Source: Fibrobacter sp. UWR3
GTDB taxonomy: Bacteria > Fibrobacterota > Fibrobacteria > Fibrobacterales > Fibrobacteraceae
Direction: 5' to 3'
Length of the DNA: 64,000 nucleotides
Assembly (NCBI RefSeq): GCF_900143055.1
Contig: NZ_FRCW01000003.1
Span: forward strand, 1 to 64,000
Shown: piece after piece, positions 22,679 through 55,063 of the stretch
Layout: each line of letters starts with the position of its first letter
Numbering within the stretch: position 1 is the first letter of the stretch
Translations under genes and position numbers: made by a program
The notes under the pieces: generated by a model
The model's database searches: none
Seen by the model: the letters and a program-made list of their open reading frames with translations, nothing else
What the model was told of the DNA's origin: nothing

Positions 22679-24970
22679 TTAGTCGAACACTTTCTTCTTG
22701 CGTTGGTCGCGACCGATTAACACGAGGCTCACGACCACTCCGGCAAGCAGCGCTACCGAGGTGACGATCCATGCGGTAGAGCGCCCGCAGGACACCTGGA
22801 AGAACAGTACCGAGAGGCTCCAGCCGATAATTGTCTGGAACACCATCATGAGCGTTCCATAGAAGCGTCCGAGTTCACGGAAAGCAGTTCCCATGGCGGC
22901 AAGGCACGGCACATAGAGTAATATGAACAGCAGGTAAGCAAGCACCTGGAAACGCCCGAGGTTGAAATGCGCCTGCATCGTCTTGTACGCACCTTCGTTC
23001 CCGACACTTTCGGATTCATCAATCGCATCCTTGACGCCCAGCGGGTTTGCAATCGAAGTAAAGACTTCTACCAGGTTCGCCGGGACGCTCACGAGAGCTT
23101 CTTTCACCGTCGATTTCAGGCTGAAGCCTTCGTCCGCGGCGGTTTCTTCCGGAGCCGAGTCGTCCGTGCCTTCAATCGCATACAGCGAATTGAGCGTTCC
23201 GACAATCGCCTCTTTCGCGAAGAGCCCCGTAAAGAGAGCCACCGAAGCGGGCCAGTTATCGCGTTCAACGCCGAAGGGTTCGAACACGGGCGTAATCACC
23301 GTGCCCACGGCACTCAGCACCGACTTTTCGTTGTTGTCGTTACCGAAACTTCCGTCAGTACCGACGGAGCCCATAAAGCCAAGCACTGTCACCATGATGA
23401 GCACGACCTTGCCCGCACGGAAAACAAATTCCTTGAGGCGGAGCCATGCGTGGCGGAAAAGGTTGCGCATCTTGGGCAAATGGTAAGGCGGCAGTTCCAT
23501 GATGAACGTCGATTCCTTGCCCATGAAAACCGTATGGCGCAAGAGCAGGCCGTAAATCAAAGCAATCACGATGCCCGTCAGGTAAATCCCGAACACGAGC
23601 GTTCCCGCGCTTTCGCCGAAGAACGCCGCGCCGAATAGCGCATACACCGGGAGACGTGCGCCGCAGCTCATGAACGGCACTAGGAACAAAGTAAGGAACC
23701 TTTCGCGCTTGTTTTCGAGCGTACGCGTGCCCATGAGCGCCGGCACCGAGCAGCCAAAGCCCACAATCATCGGCACAAAAGCCTTGCCTGGGAGCCCGAG
23801 AAACCGCATAAATCGATCCGCCACGAACGCCGCACGCGACATGTAGCCGGAATCCTCGAGGAACGAAAGGCAAAGGAACATGAAGAAAATGACCGGAATG
23901 AATGTTGACACCGTCTGGATGCCCGTACCGATGCCGTTCGCCAACAGCGCCACAACAACGCCCGGCGCGCCAACCTTCGTCAACAGTTCCGTCATGCCGT
24001 CCACGAAAATGCCACCGAACAGAATGTCGAAGAAATCGATGAACGCACTGCCAACCTTCACCGCAAACCAGAACACCAGATACATGGCAATGAGGAAAAG
24101 CGGAATTCCCAGAATGCGGTTCAAGAAGAGCTTGTCAAGCTTGTCAGTTCGCGTGCGCTTGGTAGTATTGTCGCGGATGACCGCCTTCGCGATGTCGCGG
24201 GCATAGGAGTAACGGGAATCGGCCAGCGCAAATTCCACCTCTTCGCCCAAGTCTTCTTCAATCTTGTCGTGCGGAATTTCGACACCGAGTTCGTCAGCGA
24301 GTTCCAAAACTCGTCCGCTATGCTCCAGGTATTGCACCGCCGTCCAACGGGGACTTGCACCGAGTTTGTCTGCCACGGGCTTAAGCGGCACCGAGATTTC
24401 TTCAATCAGCTTTTCCAGAACTTCGGAATGCTTGACCGCTTTCGGGAGCGGAAGTTCTCGGCTGTTGTGCAGCAGCTTGTGCAAGTCGTTCACGAATCCT
24501 TCGCAGCTCTTGGGCGAAACCGCCGTGAGGCCAATCGCCGTCACGCCGAGAATTTCTTCGAGCTTGTGCAGGTCCACATGGATACCGCGACTCGCCGCGA
24601 TATCCATCATGTTCACCGCCAGGACCATCGGCACGCCCTTTTCCATCAGCTGACTCGTGAGGAACAGGTTGCGCTCCAGGTTCGTCGCATCCAGGATGTT
24701 CACGACCAAGTCCGCCTCGCCCTTGAGCAAGTAATCGAGAGCGGCACGCTCGTCTTCGGAGTTTGCAAACAGTGCGTAGATGCCCGGCAAGTCCACCACG
24801 CGAATCGTGTGGTTATCGAGTTTGAACTGGCCCTCTTTCTTTTCGACAGTCACGCCAGGCCAGTTGCCCACAATCTGGTTCGAGCCGGTCAGCGAGTTAA
24901 AGAGCGCGGTCTTTCCGCAGTTCGGGTTGCCCGCAATCGCAATCGTGAAAACTTCTTTCTCGATAGGCAT
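22679..24970 (-). CDS. feoB: Ferrous iron transporter B (Feo system 1)
   Basis: A 763-residue Fe2+ transporter. The N-terminal GTPase has G1 GNPNCGKT (residues 15-22), switch region VGNWPGVTVEKKEG, G3 DLPG and G4 NMMD. A spacer (about 170-270) leads to the membrane domain, with the two Gate motifs (GFGCSVPALMGTR; the later CLAAMG) and the MELPPYHLPK loop. An acidic loop (GTDDSAPEETAADEG) interrupts the region before the last helices. The start codon overlaps the feoA stop by one base. With feoA and the DtxR-type regulator upstream it makes a self-contained iron uptake and control operon. Confidence 0.94.
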   Translation of the reverse strand: MPIEKEVFTIAIAGNPNCGKTALFNSLTGSNQIVGNWPGVTVEKKEGQFKLDNHTIRVVDLPGIYALFANSEDERAALDYLLKGEADLVVNILDATNLERNLFLTSQLMEKGVPMVLAVNMMDIAASRGIHVDLHKLEEILGVTAIGLTAVSPKSCEGFVNDLHKLLHNSRELPLPKAVKHSEVLEKLIEEISVPLKPVADKLGASPRWTAVQYLEHSGRVLELADELGVEIPHDKIEEDLGEEVEFALADSRYSYARDIAKAVIRDNTTKRTRTDKLDKLFLNRILGIPLFLIAMYLVFWFAVKVGSAFIDFFDILFGGIFVDGMTELLTKVGAPGVVVALLANGIGTGIQTVSTFIPVIFFMFLCLSFLEDSGYMSRAAFVADRFMRFLGLPGKAFVPMIVGFGCSVPALMGTRTLENKRERFLTLFLVPFMSCGARLPVYALFGAAFFGESAGTLVFGIYLTGIVIALIYGLLLRHTVFMGKESTFIMELPPYHLPKMRNLFRHAWLRLKEFVFRAGKVVLIMVTVLGFMGSVGTDGSFGNDNNEKSVLSAVGTVITPVFEPFGVERDNWPASVALFTGLFAKEAIVGTLNSLYAIEGTDDSAPEETAADEGFSLKSTVKEALVSVPANLVEVFTSIANPLGVKDAIDESESVGNEGAYKTMQAHFNLGRFQVLAYLLFILLYVPCLAAMGTAFRELGRFYGTLMMVFQTIIGWSLSVLFFQVSCGRSTAWIVTSVALLAGVVVSLVLIGRDQRKKKVFD

Positions 24971-25220: not shown

Positions 25221-25646
25221 TTACTTTTTCTTAGATTTAGCGGCGTTCGACTTTTTCGCCGTCATACCCGTATTGGGGGAGTTCACGAACTCCTCGATTT
25301 TCTCGAGAGTCTCCGTCGAAAGAATGTGCTCCATGCAGCAGGCGTCCTTGTCGGCAATCGCCTCGGACACGCCGAGCTTGATCAAAAAACGCTTCAACAG
25401 AATGTGACGGTTCAAAATCTGGGACGCCACCAGCGCACCTTCCGAGGTGAGTTCGATGCCACTGTAAGGCTCCTGCGTCACAAGGCCGAGCTTCTTGAGT
25501 TCGATTACCGCCTTGGCCACCGACGGCATCTTGACCTTGAGCGCCGCCGCAATGTCGCGGACACGGGCAATCCCGTTCGCAAGGCGCAGCATGTGCACCA
25601 TTTCCAAGTAGTCTTCAAGGCTCTGGCTTAACTTTACTTGTTCCAT
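25221..25646 (-). CDS. DtxR/MntR-family metal-dependent repressor
   Basis: A 141-residue regulator. The start at 25646 is chosen because GGAG lies 9 nt upstream; a TTG start at 25667 would add seven residues covering that site. The winged helix-turn-helix occupies residues 1-65 (SLEDYLEMVHMLRLANGIARVRDIAAAL; VKMPSVAKAV; GLVTQEPYSGIELTSEG). The dimerisation/metal domain has the typical His, Asp and Cys ligands (RHILLKRFL, then DACCMEH). It lacks the SH3 domain, as in MntR/TroR-size members. The C terminus ends in a Lys/Ser-rich tail. It heads the feoAB operon and probably binds the TTAG...CTAA boxes upstream. Confidence 0.9.
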   Translation of the reverse strand: MEQVKLSQSLEDYLEMVHMLRLANGIARVRDIAAALKVKMPSVAKAVIELKKLGLVTQEPYSGIELTSEGALVASQILNRHILLKRFLIKLGVSEAIADKDACCMEHILSTETLEKIEEFVNSPNTGMTAKKSNAAKSKKK

Positions 25647-25684
25647 AGGACGGCTCCGATTAGACAAAAAACATACCTTGTTTA

Positions 25685-25732
25685 TTAGTCAACGCTAAAT
25701 TTAGAAAGCCTCGGCTAATTAGTAAAGGCTAA
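25685..25732. promoter_or_regulatory. Two DtxR-type operator boxes before dtxR-feoA-feoB
   Basis: TTAGTCAACGCTAA (25685-25698) and TTAGTAAAGGCTAA (25719-25732) share the outer TTAG...CTAA with boxes upstream of the second feoAB operon. The 34-bp spacing puts them about three helical turns apart. Binding by the regulator encoded just downstream is inferred. Confidence 0.65.
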
Positions 25733-44879: not shown

Positions 44880-46283
44880 TTAGAAGCTGTACACCGTTTC
44901 AAGACCGAAACGCAGAGCATTGTCGTCTTCGTTATCCTGCACTGCAACATCCACCATGCCGAAAGCGGTGATTTCCAGGTTTTCGACCGGAGTGATGTAG
45001 ATGCGGCCACCGACATCGAACGTAGCAGCGGTATCGTCATCATCATCCAAGGTGTGCGTGTGGTATTCTACAGGAATGCCGAACTTGATGAATTCGGCAA
45101 GCTTGAAAGCCGGTTCGGCATACACGAAGAAGTATTCCGGAATTTCGCCGTTGTCAAGGTCGCTTGCATCTTCGGCGGCATCGCCCCTGTCAACAATGGC
45201 ATAGAAGGCAGTCGTCTTGATATCGAACATACCCACTTCGAAGGTCGGCTCAACCAAGAAGGCGTGAGCGGTAGAAGTCCAATCCTGACCTTCCACGACA
45301 TCGCCGTCGTCACCCAGGTAGTCGGCATGGAAGCCATACACAGCCCTGAAGCCAAAGCCACCGAGAGAGAGGCCCGCTTCTACACCGGCATGGAGTTCGT
45401 TATGCTGAGTGGTCTGGAAGCTCTTGTAGTCTACATACGGACGCAAGTGCTGACCGGCATAATCGAATTCGTAGGCGGCGTGCACATCGTAAACCTTGGC
45501 ACCTTCTTCGTCGGCCCAGTCGTTATCGCCACGACCAAAGCCAACACCGAGAATGAAGCCAGCCAGGTCAATTTCAAGACCGCGGATATCGTGTTCCTTC
45601 ATACCGGCGGCGTTATCGGCAGGATCGTCGTAGTCATAGTAGGCAACGAATGCACCTTCCGAGAAAGTCAGGTCGCCCAGCTTAACCGAGAAGAAATCGG
45701 CCGGCTGGTACTGAATATAGGCGCCGTTGTAAATGGCGGCCGGATCAGTCGTTTCACCGTCGGCTTCGAGGCCAACGAATGCAGACCACTTTTCGTTGAA
45801 CTTGACTTCAAAATTCAGGTCGAAGGTAGAAGCGTAGGAATGGTTCAGGTCATCTTCTGCCCAGACATTGCCTGTGTAAGCATCAAATTCCACTTCGCCA
45901 TTGTACTTGACTTCCATCTGGGCTTCCGAAGTGCCTTCGTTCATGCTAGCCTTGAGCATGCCGAGAGCGTTACCGGCGGCGTCAGCGACTTCGCCCGGGT
46001 TAGTGTTTTCGGCAGGAGCGGATTCAACGGTTTTTTCTTCGGCAGGAGCGGCAGCGACAGGAGTTTCCTGAGCCGGAGCAGCGGCAGGGGCTTCCTGGGC
46101 AGGAGCCGGAGCGGCCTGAGTTTCAGCAGGGGCAGCAGCGGGAGCTGCAGCAGGAGCTTCCGCAACAGGCGCTGCAGCGGGGGCTTCGGCGGCAGGGGCA
46201 GCTTCCTGAGCGAATGCGGGTATCGCAAACACGGAGGCAGCAGCAAGGCCGAACACAAGATTAGACGTCAAACGGTTCTTCAT
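44880..46283 (-). CDS. Outer-membrane porin with Ala/Pro-rich N-terminal spacer
   Basis: A 467-residue porin. The start at 46283 follows AGGGAGAG and gives a signal peptide ending near PAFAQ. Residues about 25-105 are Ala/Pro/Glu repeats (EAPAAAP units), probably a periplasmic or peptidoglycan-spanning spacer. The remainder is a beta barrel with alternating strands (VEFDAYTGNVWAE, NFEVKFNEKWSAFVGLEADG, DFFSVKLGDLTFSEGAFVAY) and ends in the C-terminal Phe of outer-membrane proteins (RFGLETVYSF). A sigma-54 promoter and an adjacent TTAG...CTAA box suggest joint nitrogen and metal control. The solute is unknown. Confidence 0.85.
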   Translation of the reverse strand: MKNRLTSNLVFGLAAASVFAIPAFAQEAAPAAEAPAAAPVAEAPAAAPAAAPAETQAAPAPAQEAPAAAPAQETPVAAAPAEEKTVESAPAENTNPGEVADAAGNALGMLKASMNEGTSEAQMEVKYNGEVEFDAYTGNVWAEDDLNHSYASTFDLNFEVKFNEKWSAFVGLEADGETTDPAAIYNGAYIQYQPADFFSVKLGDLTFSEGAFVAYYDYDDPADNAAGMKEHDIRGLEIDLAGFILGVGFGRGDNDWADEEGAKVYDVHAAYEFDYAGQHLRPYVDYKSFQTTQHNELHAGVEAGLSLGGFGFRAVYGFHADYLGDDGDVVEGQDWTSTAHAFLVEPTFEVGMFDIKTTAFYAIVDRGDAAEDASDLDNGEIPEYFFVYAEPAFKLAEFIKFGIPVEYHTHTLDDDDDTAATFDVGGRIYITPVENLEITAFGMVDVAVQDNEDDNALRFGLETVYSF

Positions 46284-46388
46284 TTTTCTCTCCCTTGACG
46301 GATTGATTTTCTGTTTTTGTAACACTCCGTCAGGTTTTTTACAAATAGTGCTACAAAAACGCTTGGCTATCGCCTTCTGTGTGCTATT

Positions 46389-46431: not shown

Positions 46432-46445
46432 TTAGACTAATCTAA
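46432..46445. promoter_or_regulatory. DtxR-type box near the porin promoter
   Basis: TTAGACTAATCTAA, centred 33 bp upstream of the -24 element. It matches the boxes at both feo operons. Confidence 0.5.
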
Positions 46446-46510: not shown

Positions 46511-49432
46511 TTAGTCTTCGAATCTCTTTTCCTTATTGGCCTTCATGCCGAAGAGCTTGAGGAAGATTCCCGTACCCACAAGCACCACGATGGCAGCGAC
46601 AATCCATGTCACGTTTCCACCAACAGGCACCTGGTAAAGGAGTACCGCCACAGCCCAGGCAAGGAGCGTCTGCACCGTCGCCATGAGGATTGCGAGGCCG
46701 AGGCCGATTTCGCGGGCAACCACACCCATGGCTGCAAGGCACGGCACGTAGAGCAGGATGAAGATGAGGAATGCGAACACCTGCCAGTTAAAGCCATCCA
46801 CCGGGTTACCGTTTTTGTCCGGGTTGTGGAAGTAGGAGCGGAGGTTCGCATAAATATCCATCGTCTCGGAGAGGTCGCCTTCTTCGAGAGCGCCCATTTC
46901 GTCTTCGGAGAGTTCGAGGCCTGCGGCAGCGAGCTTGGCAAACACGGCTTCGCGGGTCTTTTCATCCTCTTCTTCTTCGCCGAAGGTTTCGATGGCTGCA
47001 TATTCTTCGCAGGTCAGCACCTTGGCGTCGGTAATCTTGTCCAAAGTTTCTTTCTTGAGTTCGGCTGCTTCCTGGCCTTCCAATTCACCGGTGGTTCCGA
47101 GCGGGTCGGTGAGGGAGCCGAATACTTCGGCGAGGTTAGCAGGAATCGAGCCGAGAGCTTCGAGCACGGCGCCCTTGATGTCGGGTGCGCCACCTTCTTC
47201 CTCTTCTTCGGCAGGGCATTCGTCAATGCCCGCGATAAGGGGCTTTTCTTCTGCAGGAGCGGCTTCGGCAACAACTTCTGCGGGTTCAGCAGGTGCTGCG
47301 GCACTATCGGCAACCACAGCGCTATCGGTTGCAGCAGAATCAGCGGCAGCAACAGTCGAATCGGCCTTCACGCTATCCGTAGCGGCAGAATCAGCGACTG
47401 CAACTTGTTCCGGTTCCGCAGCCTTGCCATCTTCATTCGTTTCCGAATTCTGAATTCCGGATTCCGAATTGTTCTCCCCCACCATGGAATAGAGCGAGTT
47501 CATGGTACCGATAACAGCTTCCTTGGCCAACAGGCCCGTAAACAGCGACACGGATGCAGGCCAGTTTTCACGCTCGACACCGAACGGTTCGAACACCGGC
47601 GTAATCGCCTTACCGATTATAGAAAGCAAGCTGTTTTCGGAGTCGCCGTTACCGGCAGTGAACTCGTTTGACTTCACCACCTTGGATTCGTCAACAACGA
47701 AACCTTCGGGGAGAGCAACATTTTCAGCCTCGCCTTCTTCATTTTCCTTGACCATCTGGTAGCCGTCTTCGGCCTGGACAATTTCGGTCGTCTTGCCGTC
47801 AACATCGACATACATCTTCTCGACAATACCGAAACTGTTGAGGAACCCGAGCACGGCAACGGCAAGCGTAATCACCTTACCGGCGCGCCAGATGTAGTCG
47901 CGCAGGCGCTGCCAGCAGTGAATCATCAGGGACTTGAACTTGGGCAAGTGATACGGCGGAAGTTCCATCACAAAGTTGCTGGCCTGGCCCTGGAAAAGCG
48001 ACCTCTTCAGGAACAAACCGTAAGCGATAGCGAACAGCACACCGGCGAGGTAAAGCAGGAACACCACCGTGCCCGCCATCTTGCCGAAGAATGCCGCCGC
48101 AAACAGTGCATACACCGGGAGGCGTGCGCCGCAGCTCATGAACGGCACCAAGAAGATGGTGAGGAAACGTTCACGCTTGGATTCCAGCACGCGGGAGCCC
48201 ATAATGCCCGGCACGCCGCAACCGAAGCCCACCATCATCGGCACGAAGGCACGACCGGGGAGCCCGAGGAAACGCATGAAGCGGTCTGCAACAAAAGCCG
48301 CGCGGGCCATGTAACCCGAGTCTTCCAAGAACGAAAGGCACAGGAACATGAAGAAGATGACCGGGATGAAGGTCGAAACCGTCTGGATACCGGCACCGAT
48401 GCCGTCGGCGAGAACTGCCGTGACAAAGGAGGGGCAGCCGAGTACATCGCCCAGCAGGTAGCCGAGGCCATCCACGAAAATCGCACCGAACAGCACGTCA
48501 AAGAAATCAATGAACGCAGAACCGATCGTCACCGCAATCCAGAACACCAGATACATGATGACCAGGAATATCGGGAGTGCAGCCCAGCGGTTCAAAAGAA
48601 CGGCATCCAGTTTGTCGGAGAATGTCTTTTTCGTGCGGACAGAAACAGTCGCCTTCCCCGCCACCTCGTGCGAAATGGAGTAGCGGTTTTCAGCCATCGC
48701 GAATTCCGGCTCTTCGCCCAGAATCTTCACGACTTCGGCCTTGTCGAGCTTTACGCCCGCTTCGGCGAATTTGTCTGCATAGCTCTTCTGGTTGCCCAAG
48801 TACATGAGCGAAACCCAACGGGAGTCCGCATCCAAAAGCTTTGCGACCGGAGCCACCTTCGGTTCCAAAACCTTCACGGCCTCTTCGACCTTGTCGCCGT
48901 AAACCATCTGCTTCGGGAGCGGCATCGGGCTCGCAAGCACGTGGCCCATCTGGCTAATGAAATTGGTGACGCTCTTTTCGCTCACGGCAGAAAGCGGAAT
49001 GCACGGCACGCCGTAGAAATCAGAAAGTTCGTCGAGATCCAGCTGGATTCCGCGATTTTCGGCAATGTCCATCATGTTGACGGCAATCACCATCGGAATC
49101 TTCATGTCGGCAAGCTGGCTCGTAAGGAACAGGTTGCGTTCCAGGTTCGTCGCATCGACGATGTTGATAATCAAGCTCGCTTCGCGGCTGAGCAAGTAAT
49201 CGACAGCAGCGCGTTCGTCTTCGGCATTTGCGAACAAAGCGTAAGTACCCGGAAGGTCCACCAGGCGAATCTGGCGGTCGCCCAGTTCAAAGTAACCTTC
49301 CTTCTTTTCGACCGTCACGCCAGGCCAGTTACCCACATGCTGGCGTGCACCCGTAAGGGCGTTAAAGAGAGCCGTCTTACCGCAGTTCGGGTTACCGGCA
49401 ATTGCAATCGTCAAAAGTTTTCTAGCAGCCAT
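46511..49432 (-). CDS. feoB: Ferrous iron transporter B with large low-complexity insertion (Feo system 2)
   Basis: A 973-residue FeoB, about 200 longer than usual. The GTPase (GNPNCGKTALFN, VGNWPGVTVEKKEG, DLPGTYALF, NMMDIAE) and Gate motifs (GFGCGVPGIMGSR, CLAAMG) are intact. Two extra segments occur: about 50 residues near 545-600 (acidic, VQAEDGYQMVKENEEGEAEN), and about 225 residues near 645-870, with Ala/Asp/Ser repeats (ADSAATDSVKADS), a cluster ending CPAEEEEEGG and a helical part. FeoB of system 1 has a much shorter loop at the same place. They probably face the periplasm or cytoplasm between helices; the role is unknown. Confidence 0.92.
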   Translation of the reverse strand: MAARKLLTIAIAGNPNCGKTALFNALTGARQHVGNWPGVTVEKKEGYFELGDRQIRLVDLPGTYALFANAEDERAAVDYLLSREASLIINIVDATNLERNLFLTSQLADMKIPMVIAVNMMDIAENRGIQLDLDELSDFYGVPCIPLSAVSEKSVTNFISQMGHVLASPMPLPKQMVYGDKVEEAVKVLEPKVAPVAKLLDADSRWVSLMYLGNQKSYADKFAEAGVKLDKAEVVKILGEEPEFAMAENRYSISHEVAGKATVSVRTKKTFSDKLDAVLLNRWAALPIFLVIMYLVFWIAVTIGSAFIDFFDVLFGAIFVDGLGYLLGDVLGCPSFVTAVLADGIGAGIQTVSTFIPVIFFMFLCLSFLEDSGYMARAAFVADRFMRFLGLPGRAFVPMMVGFGCGVPGIMGSRVLESKRERFLTIFLVPFMSCGARLPVYALFAAAFFGKMAGTVVFLLYLAGVLFAIAYGLFLKRSLFQGQASNFVMELPPYHLPKFKSLMIHCWQRLRDYIWRAGKVITLAVAVLGFLNSFGIVEKMYVDVDGKTTEIVQAEDGYQMVKENEEGEAENVALPEGFVVDESKVVKSNEFTAGNGDSENSLLSIIGKAITPVFEPFGVERENWPASVSLFTGLLAKEAVIGTMNSLYSMVGENNSESGIQNSETNEDGKAAEPEQVAVADSAATDSVKADSTVAAADSAATDSAVVADSAAAPAEPAEVVAEAAPAEEKPLIAGIDECPAEEEEEGGAPDIKGAVLEALGSIPANLAEVFGSLTDPLGTTGELEGQEAAELKKETLDKITDAKVLTCEEYAAIETFGEEEEDEKTREAVFAKLAAAGLELSEDEMGALEEGDLSETMDIYANLRSYFHNPDKNGNPVDGFNWQVFAFLIFILLYVPCLAAMGVVAREIGLGLAILMATVQTLLAWAVAVLLYQVPVGGNVTWIVAAIVVLVGTGIFLKLFGMKANKEKRFED

Positions 49433-49716
49433 TATACCCTCCTCAGCTTGAGCACGTTCGCTTCTTCTTTACGGAGCGAGAGTCTATAAGAAAGCACGGC
49501 CACTTCGATTGGATCGCCGAGCGGGGCAGCTTGCAAGACTTCGATCTGGACGCCACGCACAAGCCCCATCGAAAGAAGCTTGGACTTGTAGCGAGAATCG
49601 CCTTCGTTATAGCCGACGATTTCCACCTTGTCGCCCTTTTTGAGTTCCGAGAACTTGGGCTCGGTACTCCACTTTTTCGTTTGCGACTTGCCGCCGCAAC
49701 CACAATTACAGCTCAT
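49432..49716 (-). CDS. feoA: FeoA protein with N-terminal Cys cluster (Feo system 2)
   Basis: A 94-residue FeoA (start at the second Met, which has AAGGA 11 nt upstream; the first possible Met at 49728 touches that site). Its SH3-like core is nearly identical to FeoA of system 1. The N-terminal extension begins MSCNCGCGGKSQTKKW, with three closely spaced Cys that could bind a metal or an Fe-S centre; system 1 lacks it. The stop overlaps the feoB start by one base. Confidence 0.9.
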   Translation of the reverse strand: MSCNCGCGGKSQTKKWSTEPKFSELKKGDKVEIVGYNEGDSRYKSKLLSMGLVRGVQIEVLQAAPLGDPIEVAVLSYRLSLRKEEANVLKLRRV

Positions 49717-49738
49717 ATTATCTATCATCCTTTTTCAA

Positions 49739-49785
49739 TTAGTCTAGGCTAATATAGTTTAATAAAACTAATTAGTCAAGGCTAA
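49739..49785. promoter_or_regulatory. Two DtxR-type boxes proximal to feoA system 2
   Basis: TTAGTCTAGGCTAA (49739-49752) and TTAGTCAAGGCTAA (49772-49785), 33 bp apart, like the pair at the first feo operon (34 bp apart). The spacing and sequence conservation support a common repressor. Confidence 0.65.
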
Positions 49786-49809: not shown

Positions 49810-49911
49810 TTAGACAAATCTAACTTTGAAACGGAAAATTTACATTATTTTAGCGTTATTGCCCTTGTTTTTGCAGTTAGATTTATCTAACTTTTAGTTA
49901 GACAAGTCTAA
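49810..49911. promoter_or_regulatory. Three further DtxR-type boxes
   Basis: TTAGACAAATCTAA (49810-49823), TTAGATTTATCTAA (49877-49890) and TTAGACAAGTCTAA (49898-49911). They are more symmetrical than the feo-proximal boxes and lie too far from feoA to be needed for it. They immediately precede the proposed sRNA, which suggests they control a plus-strand transcript. Confidence 0.55.
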
Positions 49912-50040
49912 TTCTGATTGTTGCCATAGCTTTTAGACCCGGGCTTGTCTGGTTGAAGCAAAAATCCAATTCCCTCCTTGTGTCTCTTTGGGAACGATTG
50001 CGCCCCCGCTCAAGTAGCTCTGAGCAGGGGCGTTTTTTTT
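49912..50040 (+). ncRNA. Candidate iron-regulated small RNA
   Basis: No gene on the plus strand lies between the feoA start and the Fic gene, yet a strong intrinsic terminator occurs at 50001-50040. Upstream is a hairpin with stem TTCCC/GGGAA (49970-49974 and 49990-49994) whose 15-nt loop begins TCCTTG; with the stem it gives CCCTCCTT, complementary to AGGAGG-type ribosome-binding sites. Three metal-regulator boxes lie just before. This layout recalls RyhB/PrrF-type iron sRNAs, but the sequence is not one I recognise. The 5' end is not determined. Confidence 0.45.
50001..50040 (+). terminator. Orphan intrinsic terminator
   Basis: CGCCCCcGCTCA and TGAGCaGGGGCG pair over 11 bp with one C-A mismatch, 8-nt loop, followed by eight T. 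It has no coding gene upstream on its strand. Confidence 0.9.
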
Positions 50041-52217: not shown

Positions 52218-53006
52218 ATGAACGAGCCCATATTACAAATTGCGCAAGGTCTTGCCATCCCGTTTTTAGGGACGGTTCTCGGTGCAGCCTGCGTCTTCTT
52301 TATGAAGAAGCAGATGGGACAAAATCTTAAGCGCGGACTCCTGTCTTTTGCGGCGGGCGTCATGGTGGCGGCTTCTGTATGGAGCCTGCTTTTGCCCGCA
52401 ATCAGCGCAAGCGAATCGATGGGAAAGTTGGCTTTTATTCCGGCGACGGTCGGGTTCTGGGCCGGCATTCTATTCTTGTTTGTTCTGGATAAAATTACGC
52501 CGCACTTGCATTTGGGTAGCGCCACGCCAGAAGGCCCCAAAGCGAAACTCAAGCGCACGACCATGCTCACGCTTGCGGTGACTTTGCACAACTTGCCCGA
52601 AGGAATGGCCGTCGGCATCGTATTCGCAGGCTGGCTTTCGGGGAATGTCGCCATCACGCTTTCGGGTGCGTTTGCGCTTGCCATAGGCATCGCCATCCAG
52701 AATTTCCCTGAAGGGGCGGTGGTTTCGCTCCCGCTCCGTGCCGAAGGGGCTTCCCGCAAAAAGGCTTTCGCCTTGGGAGCGCTCTCCGGAGCCGTAGAAC
52801 CCGTAGGCGCGTTAATCACGCTGCTTGCGGCCGAGGCGCTCTCGCCGTTCATGCCCTACCTGCTCTCGCTTGCGGCAGGAGCCATGATTTATGTCGTAAT
52901 CGAAGAAATGCTCCCCGAAGTCAGCGAAGGAGAGCATTTTGATGCCGGCACCATCCTTTTTGCCGTGGGCTTCACGCTCATGATGGTGCTCGACAGCGCA
53001 CTATAA
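52218..53006 (+). CDS. ZIP-family metal transporter
   Basis: A 262-residue membrane protein with eight predicted helices. The metal-binding helix 4 motif HNLPEGMAVG and the helix 5 motif FPEGAVVSLPL are present, plus a cytoplasmic loop with PHLHLG. ZIP proteins import Zn, Fe or Mn. The close spacing to the preceding barrel gene suggests joint expression, and it converges on a third Feo operon. The metal cannot be told from sequence. Confidence 0.88.
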   Translation: MNEPILQIAQGLAIPFLGTVLGAACVFFMKKQMGQNLKRGLLSFAAGVMVAASVWSLLLPAISASESMGKLAFIPATVGFWAGILFLFVLDKITPHLHLGSATPEGPKAKLKRTTMLTLAVTLHNLPEGMAVGIVFAGWLSGNVAITLSGAFALAIGIAIQNFPEGAVVSLPLRAEGASRKKAFALGALSGAVEPVGALITLLAAEALSPFMPYLLSLAAGAMIYVVIEEMLPEVSEGEHFDAGTILFAVGFTLMMVLDSAL

Positions 53007-53014
53007 TTTTTCCG

Positions 53015-55063
53015 TTAGAAAATCAGCAATCCGATGTGGTAGCCGATAAAGGCGAGCCCCAAAGAAATCGCCAAATAATACCCCATGATGGTCGCAAGCC
53101 ACTTGAACGAACCGGCCTCACGGTAGGTCGTTCCCATCGCCAGCACGCAGGGAACGTTGAACATCGACGCAAACAGGAACGCGAGCGCTTCGGGCTTGGT
53201 GATGGTACTTGCAAGCACCTCGCCCAGGTTTTCACTTGCAGCCACGCGGGTCACAAGCGAGAACGCCTCACCGGTGTGGTTGAAGAGCGTACTCATGATG
53301 CCAAGCGAAGCTTCCTTACTGAACATACCGCCCAGATAAGAGACGAACAGCTCCCAGCGCATTCCGAAGAACATCGTCACGGGCTCAATCGCATTGCCAA
53401 TCTTGTACAGGAGTGTATTTTCCACATTCCCGTCGCCCGCGTAAGAGAGCGCCCAGAAAAGAGCCGCCACCATCAGGATCATCTTCAAGGCCTTCTTGAA
53501 AATGCCCCAGGTGCTTCGCCCCACCATCGCGGCAATCATCTTCCAGTGCGGCTTGTGATACGGCGGCAGCTCCATAATCATGCCCACGCGTTCATTCTGC
53601 GGGACAAGCTTTTTGCCGAACAGGCGCGAAGACAGGCAGAAGCTTGCAAAAATCAGCGCCACGTAGCCGATACCGAACAGCGGTGCGGCCGACCCGAAGA
53701 ATGTAGACGCCAGGAACAGCACCACCGCCACCTTGCTCCCGCACGGAATCGCCCACAACAGAACGAGCGCAAGCAGGCGCTGACCGCGGGTATCGAGCAC
53801 GCGCGTGCCGCAAACCGCACCCGCCGTGCAGCCAATTCCGGAGAACAGCGGCATAATCGCCTTACCCTGCAGGCCCAGGCGCGAAAGCCAGTTGTCGAAC
53901 GCATACGAGAAACGCGCCATGTAGCCGATTTCTTCGAGAATGCGGAATACGAAAATGATGGAGAAAATGAAACTCGTCATACAAATCGTGATGCAAGTTC
54001 CTCCGACGAGCACCAGATTGATGAACGAAATCACCACAGGCCAGACGCCAAGTGCGCCGCCAACACGTTCTACGAGCGACTGCAATACAGGCTGCATTCC
54101 AAAACCGATTCCCATGCCCGGGAAAGCGAGAATCATGCACGCAATCAGCGAGACAACCATGATGCCGAACGCAAAGAACTTGCCCTTGATATGGTGCGTT
54201 GCGATGCGGTCCCACTTGCTGAAAACTTTTTCGATGGACTTGGGCGTCGCCGATTCACGCACAATCTTCGAAACCCAGCGATACTTGGCCTCGCCGGTGA
54301 GAATTCCGCCGTCGCGCCCTTCGTCGCTATCGAGGATTGCCTCAATCGCATTCTTCCTCGCGAACGGAAGCGATTCATTCACGACACCGCAAATGAGTTT
54401 GTCTTTTTCGAGGAGTTTTTCTGCAATCCAGATTTTTTCGCACACGCCATATTCAAAGTCGCCGAGGGCTGCTTCGATGCGGCTAATGATATCATCCGTT
54501 TTTGGGGCAACCTCGTCCCCGCCAACGAGTTCCTCGCGCAGGCTCCCGCTATCCAGGCAAACAGGCGTCTTGATAGCCGAAACCATCTTCTTGAAAAATT
54601 CAGGATAACGTTCCGTTTCGGCCGCGCTGAAACCGAGCACCGGAACGCCGAGGCGCTTTTCAATCGCAGCCACATCAATCTTCTTGCCCGCCGCTTCGGC
54701 CACATCCATCATATTGAGCACCAGCATCACGGGCATGCGAATGCCCACAAAATCCGCCAGCATGTAAAGGCTGCGTTCCAACTGCGATGCGTCCACCAGA
54801 ATACAGACGAGGTCGGCCTTACCACTCTGAATGTAGTCACGGGTAACGACTTCTTCTTCGGAGTTCGCCGAAAGTCCGTAACTGCCCGGAAGGTCAATTA
54901 CTTTATATGTCGTGCCGTCAAAAACAAATTCACCCTCAGCCTGCTCCACCGTTTTGCTGGGCCAGTTGCCCACGCGCTGGTGAAGCCCCGTTAAGTTGTT
55001 AAAAAGCGTCGATTTACCGGAATTGGGCTGCCCGAGCAAAGCAATAGTCTTAATTTCGATCAT
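53015..55063 (-). CDS. feoB: Ferrous iron transporter B (divergent Feo system 3)
   Basis: A 682-residue FeoB of a different branch from the other two. G1 is GQPNSGKSTLFN, followed by VGNWPSKTVEQAEG, DLPGSYGLS and NMMDVAE. Gate motifs are GIGCTAGAVCGTR and CVLAMG; the MELPPYHKPH loop is present. The Cys in the first gate and the lower similarity suggest a separate origin and perhaps different metal preference. Its FeoA-like partner ends 2 bp before its start. Confidence 0.92.
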   Translation of the reverse strand: MIEIKTIALLGQPNSGKSTLFNNLTGLHQRVGNWPSKTVEQAEGEFVFDGTTYKVIDLPGSYGLSANSEEEVVTRDYIQSGKADLVCILVDASQLERSLYMLADFVGIRMPVMLVLNMMDVAEAAGKKIDVAAIEKRLGVPVLGFSAAETERYPEFFKKMVSAIKTPVCLDSGSLREELVGGDEVAPKTDDIISRIEAALGDFEYGVCEKIWIAEKLLEKDKLICGVVNESLPFARKNAIEAILDSDEGRDGGILTGEAKYRWVSKIVRESATPKSIEKVFSKWDRIATHHIKGKFFAFGIMVVSLIACMILAFPGMGIGFGMQPVLQSLVERVGGALGVWPVVISFINLVLVGGTCITICMTSFIFSIIFVFRILEEIGYMARFSYAFDNWLSRLGLQGKAIMPLFSGIGCTAGAVCGTRVLDTRGQRLLALVLLWAIPCGSKVAVVLFLASTFFGSAAPLFGIGYVALIFASFCLSSRLFGKKLVPQNERVGMIMELPPYHKPHWKMIAAMVGRSTWGIFKKALKMILMVAALFWALSYAGDGNVENTLLYKIGNAIEPVTMFFGMRWELFVSYLGGMFSKEASLGIMSTLFNHTGEAFSLVTRVAASENLGEVLASTITKPEALAFLFASMFNVPCVLAMGTTYREAGSFKWLATIMGYYLAISLGLAFIGYHIGLLIF

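Follow-up and report, generated by a model that had tools for sequence, protein, structure and literature searches.

A putative iron-sparing small RNA divergent from feoAB in Fibrobacter, under predicted control of a DtxR-family repressor

The window analysed here, 64 kb of contig NZ_FRCW01000003.1 of Fibrobacter sp. UWR3 (genome 3.5 Mb), probably encodes a trans-acting iron-sparing small RNA (49895-50037, plus strand) under control of a DtxR-family repressor, a reading drawn from sequence to which we give a probability of about 0.82. In the mechanism that we propose, a DtxR/MntR-family repressor acting on TTAGnYnnRnCTAA boxes would silence both the RNA and the divergent feoAB genes when metal is plentiful, and low iron would release the two together; both transcription and the iron signal are what we infer here. 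The loop of the second hairpin of the RNA, UUGUGUCUCUUU, would then pair with the (A/G)GAGACAC present in iron-enzyme mRNA leaders, covering or adjoining the ribosome-binding site and presumably reducing translation, repression being the sign that we expect. The initial annotation of this DNA had suggested a RyhB-like RNA beside feoAB governed by a DtxR-type regulator. A structured RNA, DtxR-family boxes at its inferred promoter and a loop complementary to iron-enzyme leaders all speak for that suggestion, and the pairing element that it had named, CCCTCCTT, does not survive.

The RNA gene is divergent from feoA (49432-49728, minus strand; Pfam FeoA), which adjoins feoB (46511-49432, minus strand; Pfam FeoB_N, Gate and FeoB_C). 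Three TTAG...CTAA boxes had been noticed between 49810 and 49911, and all are exact matches to the strandless box pattern, at 49810-49823 (TTAGACAAATCTAA), 49877-49890 (TTAGATTTATCTAA, overlapping a candidate promoter) and 49898-49911 (TTAGACAAGTCTAA, which doubles as the 5′ arm of hairpin 1). Two further boxes, at 49739-49752 and 49772-49785, lie at the divergent feoA promoter. The perfect box, TTAGNYNNRNCTAA, has six copies in the 3.5-Mb genome, five of which fall inside one 173-bp gap between feoA and the terminator, whereas the reversed pattern, taken as a control, matches 22 times per strand across the genome; the cluster is therefore not due to chance. Within the window, sites with at most one mismatch number 11 against 3.9 expected, a figure that none of 100 shuffles equalled. 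A perfect box is also found at 46432-46445, between feoB and a porin-like gene (44880-46325) and upstream of the latter. In a paralogue of this porin elsewhere in the genome (L290), the ribosome-binding site is covered by a strong match to the seed, CAAGGAGACACAA, and the pair, one boxed and one seed-matched, could possibly form an iron-dependent porin switch. The same 64 kb hold three feoB-like genes (22679-24970, 46511-49432 and 53015-55063) and a ZIP-type transporter gene (52218-53006).

The box form TTAGnYnnRnCTAA is a palindrome of the DtxR/MntR kind, and a gene of that family is linked to it: most relatives carry one in the interval separating feoA from the RNA, on the strand opposite to the RNA. 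That interval is free of a regulator gene in the window genome, where a 75% identical copy, the only close one in this genome, heads a second feoAB operon (25221-25667, minus strand) with one-mismatch boxes at 25685 and 25719. Predicted sites of this kind are thus common to feoAB, to the dtxR-feoAB operon and to the inferred promoter of the RNA. The closest solved relatives of the regulator and its NCBIfam models are MntR, at scores below the family cut-off, and it is nearer to MntR than to IdeR. These matches would suit an RNA that is real and metal-controlled but answers to manganese, through an MntR-like repressor released at low Mn, with the predicted targets controlled otherwise. We consider this improbable, given boxes at feoAB, at the second dtxR-feoAB operon and upstream of the porin gene, predicted targets that are iron enzymes, and a Cys in the regulator at the position aligned with MntR E99, a DtxR-like feature. 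Iron remains the signal that we favour.

The gene body, of approximately 140 nt, was delimited by a conserved block, alignment, a covariance model and folds, with its start placed to within a few nucleotides and its end in the T-run. The candidate promoter, CTTG-N20-TAACTTT (49864-49895, plus strand), overlaps the box at 49877-49890; its CCCTTG and AACTTT are invariant among the aligned relatives, and we take it to resemble the Bacteroidetes -33/-7 promoter. A DNA search found the RNA block in about 24 of 60 genomes of the same genus. The covariance search of other Fibrobacter genomes that had been proposed as a check was likewise productive, returning the RNA in 33 of 168 genomes from the phylum, all of one genus, a count that leaves out two weak matches (G049 and G093, E ~0.007). 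The match in G093, which is outside the genus, was discounted; those in G049 and L403 were set aside as lacking the seed or having merely a chance terminator, and minus-strand matches reflect the palindromic terminator. When the exact loop plus terminator pattern was run against 85,000 genomes it matched 19 contigs, of which 17 come from Fibrobacter-labelled MAGs, one from a Fibrobacterales MAG and one from a Clostridia-labelled MAG and may be misbinned. Viral contigs gave no match. A search of the feo neighbourhoods in several RNA-less genomes, approximately 370 kb in all, found no copy of the RNA.

Every intact copy ends at the T-run, past which the genomes carry differing, unrelated flanks, so the RNA unit ends there. 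One copy (G015, L009) is broken just before the terminator stem and fused to unrelated sequence, through recombination or an assembly error. The terminator is indeed an orphan, as first described: it is preceded by no plus-strand ORF, and the closest gene on that side is feoA, which is read from the minus strand. Its origin as a remnant of an upstream gene lost only in this strain was rejected, as no relative has a same-strand upstream gene. The window copy does have an open frame of 28 codons beginning at TTG, as might be expected if the block were a short mRNA for a small peptide, or a leader for a downstream gene. Such a role is very unlikely, however: indels among relatives break the frame and shift it, leaving no reading frame common to them, which led us to reject a peptide-coding reading; moreover, a strong terminator follows and the gene downstream differs among genomes. 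The block is instead a conserved, stand-alone unit with its own terminator and without a conserved frame, predicted to be non-coding.

Twenty-two copies of the RNA fold into three hairpins. The fold of 49893-50036 has an energy of -53.5 kcal/mol (z -4.8), with single-copy folds ranging in z from -2.6 to -5.3, and in the aligned copies both sides have changed at six base pairs, and 98.3% of cells are paired; shuffling gives 94.8%, and sliding no more than 53%. Hairpin 1 (49893-49957, plus strand) is long, shows compensatory changes between relatives and uses the last box (49898-49911) as its 5′ arm. Where this box is degenerate, as in G060 and G058, both arms of the hairpin have nevertheless changed together (UUGGCGGGUC...GAGCCUGCCAGG). 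Because the last box is paired within hairpin 1, we argue that the transcript includes it, in agreement with a start just 3′ of the invariant CCCTTG-N20-AACTTT. In G045 (L074) a 20-base tandem duplication (CGGGCTTGTCTGGTTGAAGC) lies within hairpin 1. The loop of this hairpin (49920-49935, GCCATAG) contains GCCAUA, complementary to UAUGGC at the start codons of rubrerythrin, sirohaem reductase and fumarase; it is a possible second pairing site, or the match may be chance.

The hairpin originally reported just upstream of the terminator, bearing CCCTCCTT, is present at 49970-49994 (hairpin 2, plus strand), with a UUCCC/GGGAA stem kept in all alignment rows and a putative target-pairing loop. The strong intrinsic terminator, first placed at 50001-50040, is hairpin 3 (50000-50040, plus strand), whose stem spans 50000-50033 with a T-run to 50040, and it is kept in all intact copies. 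A divergent copy, G136, has its terminator swapped for another sequence and keeps hairpin 2 intact, which indicates hairpin 2 as the working part; the conserved terminator loop AGUAGCUC is absent from this copy and was rejected as a required part.

Within hairpin 2 the putative seed, TTGTGTCTCTTTG (49978-49990, plus strand), is invariant in all aligned copies and is a 13-nt perfect complement of the rubrerythrin leader. The anti-Shine-Dalgarno element CCCTCCTT, which had been proposed to do the pairing, is not conserved, relatives having CCCTCTTTTG, CCCTTTTTG or CCCTCTTG in its place, and we rejected it as a functional element. The invariant part of the loop is instead UUGUGUCUCUUU, which is located just 3′ of CCCTCC and is complementary to AGAGACAC/GGAGACAC. 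This complement, written (A/G)GAGACAC, often overlaps a Shine-Dalgarno sequence, and in rubrerythrin it sits at the presumed 5′ end of the mRNA.

Predicted targets were searched for with one seed in one genome, and the search was then extended to twelve genomes. In the genome of the window the loop complement AAGAGACAC has ten sites, including the RNA gene itself and the rubrerythrin leader, where 13 perfect pairs (CAAAGAGACACAA) can form approximately 20-30 nt before the start. Scans for near-matches and for the 8-mer GAGACACA ahead of an ATG yielded nine plausible leader sites, in which the 8-mer falls 1-30 nt from a plausible start of the gene that follows. Six of these precede iron enzymes: rubrerythrin, Fe-type superoxide dismutase, class I fumarase, SdhC/FrdC b558 (the cytochrome b subunit of fumarate reductase/succinate dehydrogenase), PFOR, and a sirohaem nitrite/sulphite reductase with 4Fe-4S domains. 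The remaining three, which encode a TSCPD protein, a porin and a DNA methylase, do not count among known iron genes. Finding at least six iron genes among nine has P ~6e-5 at an assumed background fraction of 10%, and 6e-4 at 15%. Other RNA-carrying genomes add NuoA and rubredoxin-rubrerythrin as leader matches. A conserved seed complementary to the leaders of iron-protein mRNAs is thus in place, as one might expect for an iron-sparing small RNA. Duplex energies were also lower for the targets than for background ORFs, a difference that we do not count as evidence because the targets had been picked by seed.

Some leader matches coincide with ordinary Shine-Dalgarno sequences, and GGAGACAC can double as Shine-Dalgarno context. 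It is conceivable that highly expressed genes of the genus commonly have AAGGAGACACA as a strong ribosome-binding context and that the RNA acts elsewhere, as would fit the presence of the motif at the porin and a few other non-iron genes and, in RNA-less genomes, at sdhC and PFOR. Against this stands rubrerythrin, whose site lies 20-50 nt before the start, apart from the gene's own Shine-Dalgarno sequence, and is kept as the leaders diverge; moreover, the fumarase and TSCPD sites are without GGAG, and the iron-gene sites are all missing from two RNA-less genomes of clade B (G044 and G046). We regard such a by-product as unlikely, and pairing with iron-enzyme leaders remains the preferred reading.

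The comparison across genomes bears most directly on rubrerythrin. The leader site [AG]AGACA[CT], a few nucleotides after the -10, occurs in 16 of 20 RNA-carrying genomes, or 17 of 21 once G048, read by hand, is included, and in none of the 22 genomes with a feo locus but without the RNA; it is also found in four of ten genomes where the feo locus was not found. In fact, AGACAC is, together with TATATT, the commonest 6-mer of the rubrerythrin leaders of RNA carriers. The standard rubrerythrin site is missing from four genomes that carry the RNA (G026, G029, G001 and G045); in G001, which may be a mixed assembly, the leaders of rubrerythrin and sdhC are like those of RNA-less genomes. Because the RNA maps to a single branch of the feoAB tree, these genome counts represent few lineages and are not independent. 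Within the RNA clade, leaders have diverged while the rubrerythrin site stays, and this retention is a stronger point than the counts. The sdhC and PFOR sites do not discriminate, since they also occur in RNA-less genomes (clade C and G008), and sdhC was rejected as a diagnostic target. In G008 the target motif is carried by the PFOR, LeuC and sdhC leaders (L308, L364 and L265), and this genome yielded neither the small RNA nor a feoB hairpin bearing the seed. It nests inside the RNA clade of the feoAB tree, so loss of the RNA is possible.

In clade C, which is sister to the window clade and has no stand-alone small RNA, the feo mRNA itself may be a second carrier. In five clade C genomes (G025, G053, G035, G011 and G024) a hairpin after feoB, GGCCGTTGGA-ACGTGTCTCC-TCCAACGGCC, presents GUGUCUCC as part of its loop when read in the mRNA sense. 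At L388, L391:9612, L392:15903, L401 and L403 this loop reads GTGTCTCC, the same seed as in the small RNA of the window clade; neither in that clade nor in clade B does the feoB hairpin have the seed in its loop. Clade C genomes also have GAGACACA before PFOR, sdhC and LeuC. We suggest, tentatively and as something rather short of an even chance, that the seed has moved between two RNA carriers and that the 3′ end of the clade C feoAB mRNA would act as an iron-sparing RNA on PFOR, sdhC and LeuC.

Among known systems, fumarase is a target of RyhB. This RNA also pairs with sodB and sdhCDAB mRNAs (PMC3788343), and the predicted Fibrobacter targets similarly include sodB, sdh and fumarase. Control of the RNA by a metal repressor would be a further point in common. 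The enzymes spared in bacteria with RNAs of the RyhB type are largely of these same kinds. However, RyhB belongs to enterobacteria and relies on Fur and Hfq, while the Fibrobacter RNA has a different structure, a different seed and boxes not of the Fur but of the DtxR/MntR kind, with a DtxR-family gene linked. Indeed, no Rfam family reached its gathering score in the window, and RyhB (RF00057) was absent even among weak matches, which were chance matches to other families. MrsI of Mycobacterium, an iron-starvation small RNA, carries an IdeR box near its promoter (PMC8628891, PMC9410917), by analogy with the DtxR-family box predicted at the Fibrobacter promoter; by description it is set apart by its listed targets (hypF, bfrA and fprA), its seed, its locus and its phylum, Actinomycetota. 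FsrA of Bacillus and IsrR of Staphylococcus are iron-sparing RNAs that pair at Shine-Dalgarno sequences, FsrA through a C-rich motif (PMC9410917). These are Fur-controlled, whereas in Fibrobacter the conserved element is UUGUGUCUCUUU and the C-rich CCCTCC varies. A literature search, with subscription papers outside its scope, found no iron-sparing small RNA for Fibrobacter or its phylum, in line with the initial annotation, which knew of none in this lineage. The best reading is that the RNA is new and not homologous to the known iron-sparing small RNAs.

Fibrobacter is a main degrader of cellulose in the rumen, and the RNA would link iron supply to enzymes central to the formation of succinate, namely fumarase, fumarate reductase and PFOR. 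Its short seed and explicit targets make the proposal testable by mutation. It would also provide another case in which bacteria reach the same classes of iron-sparing targets, here through an RNA of unrelated origin and another family of repressor.
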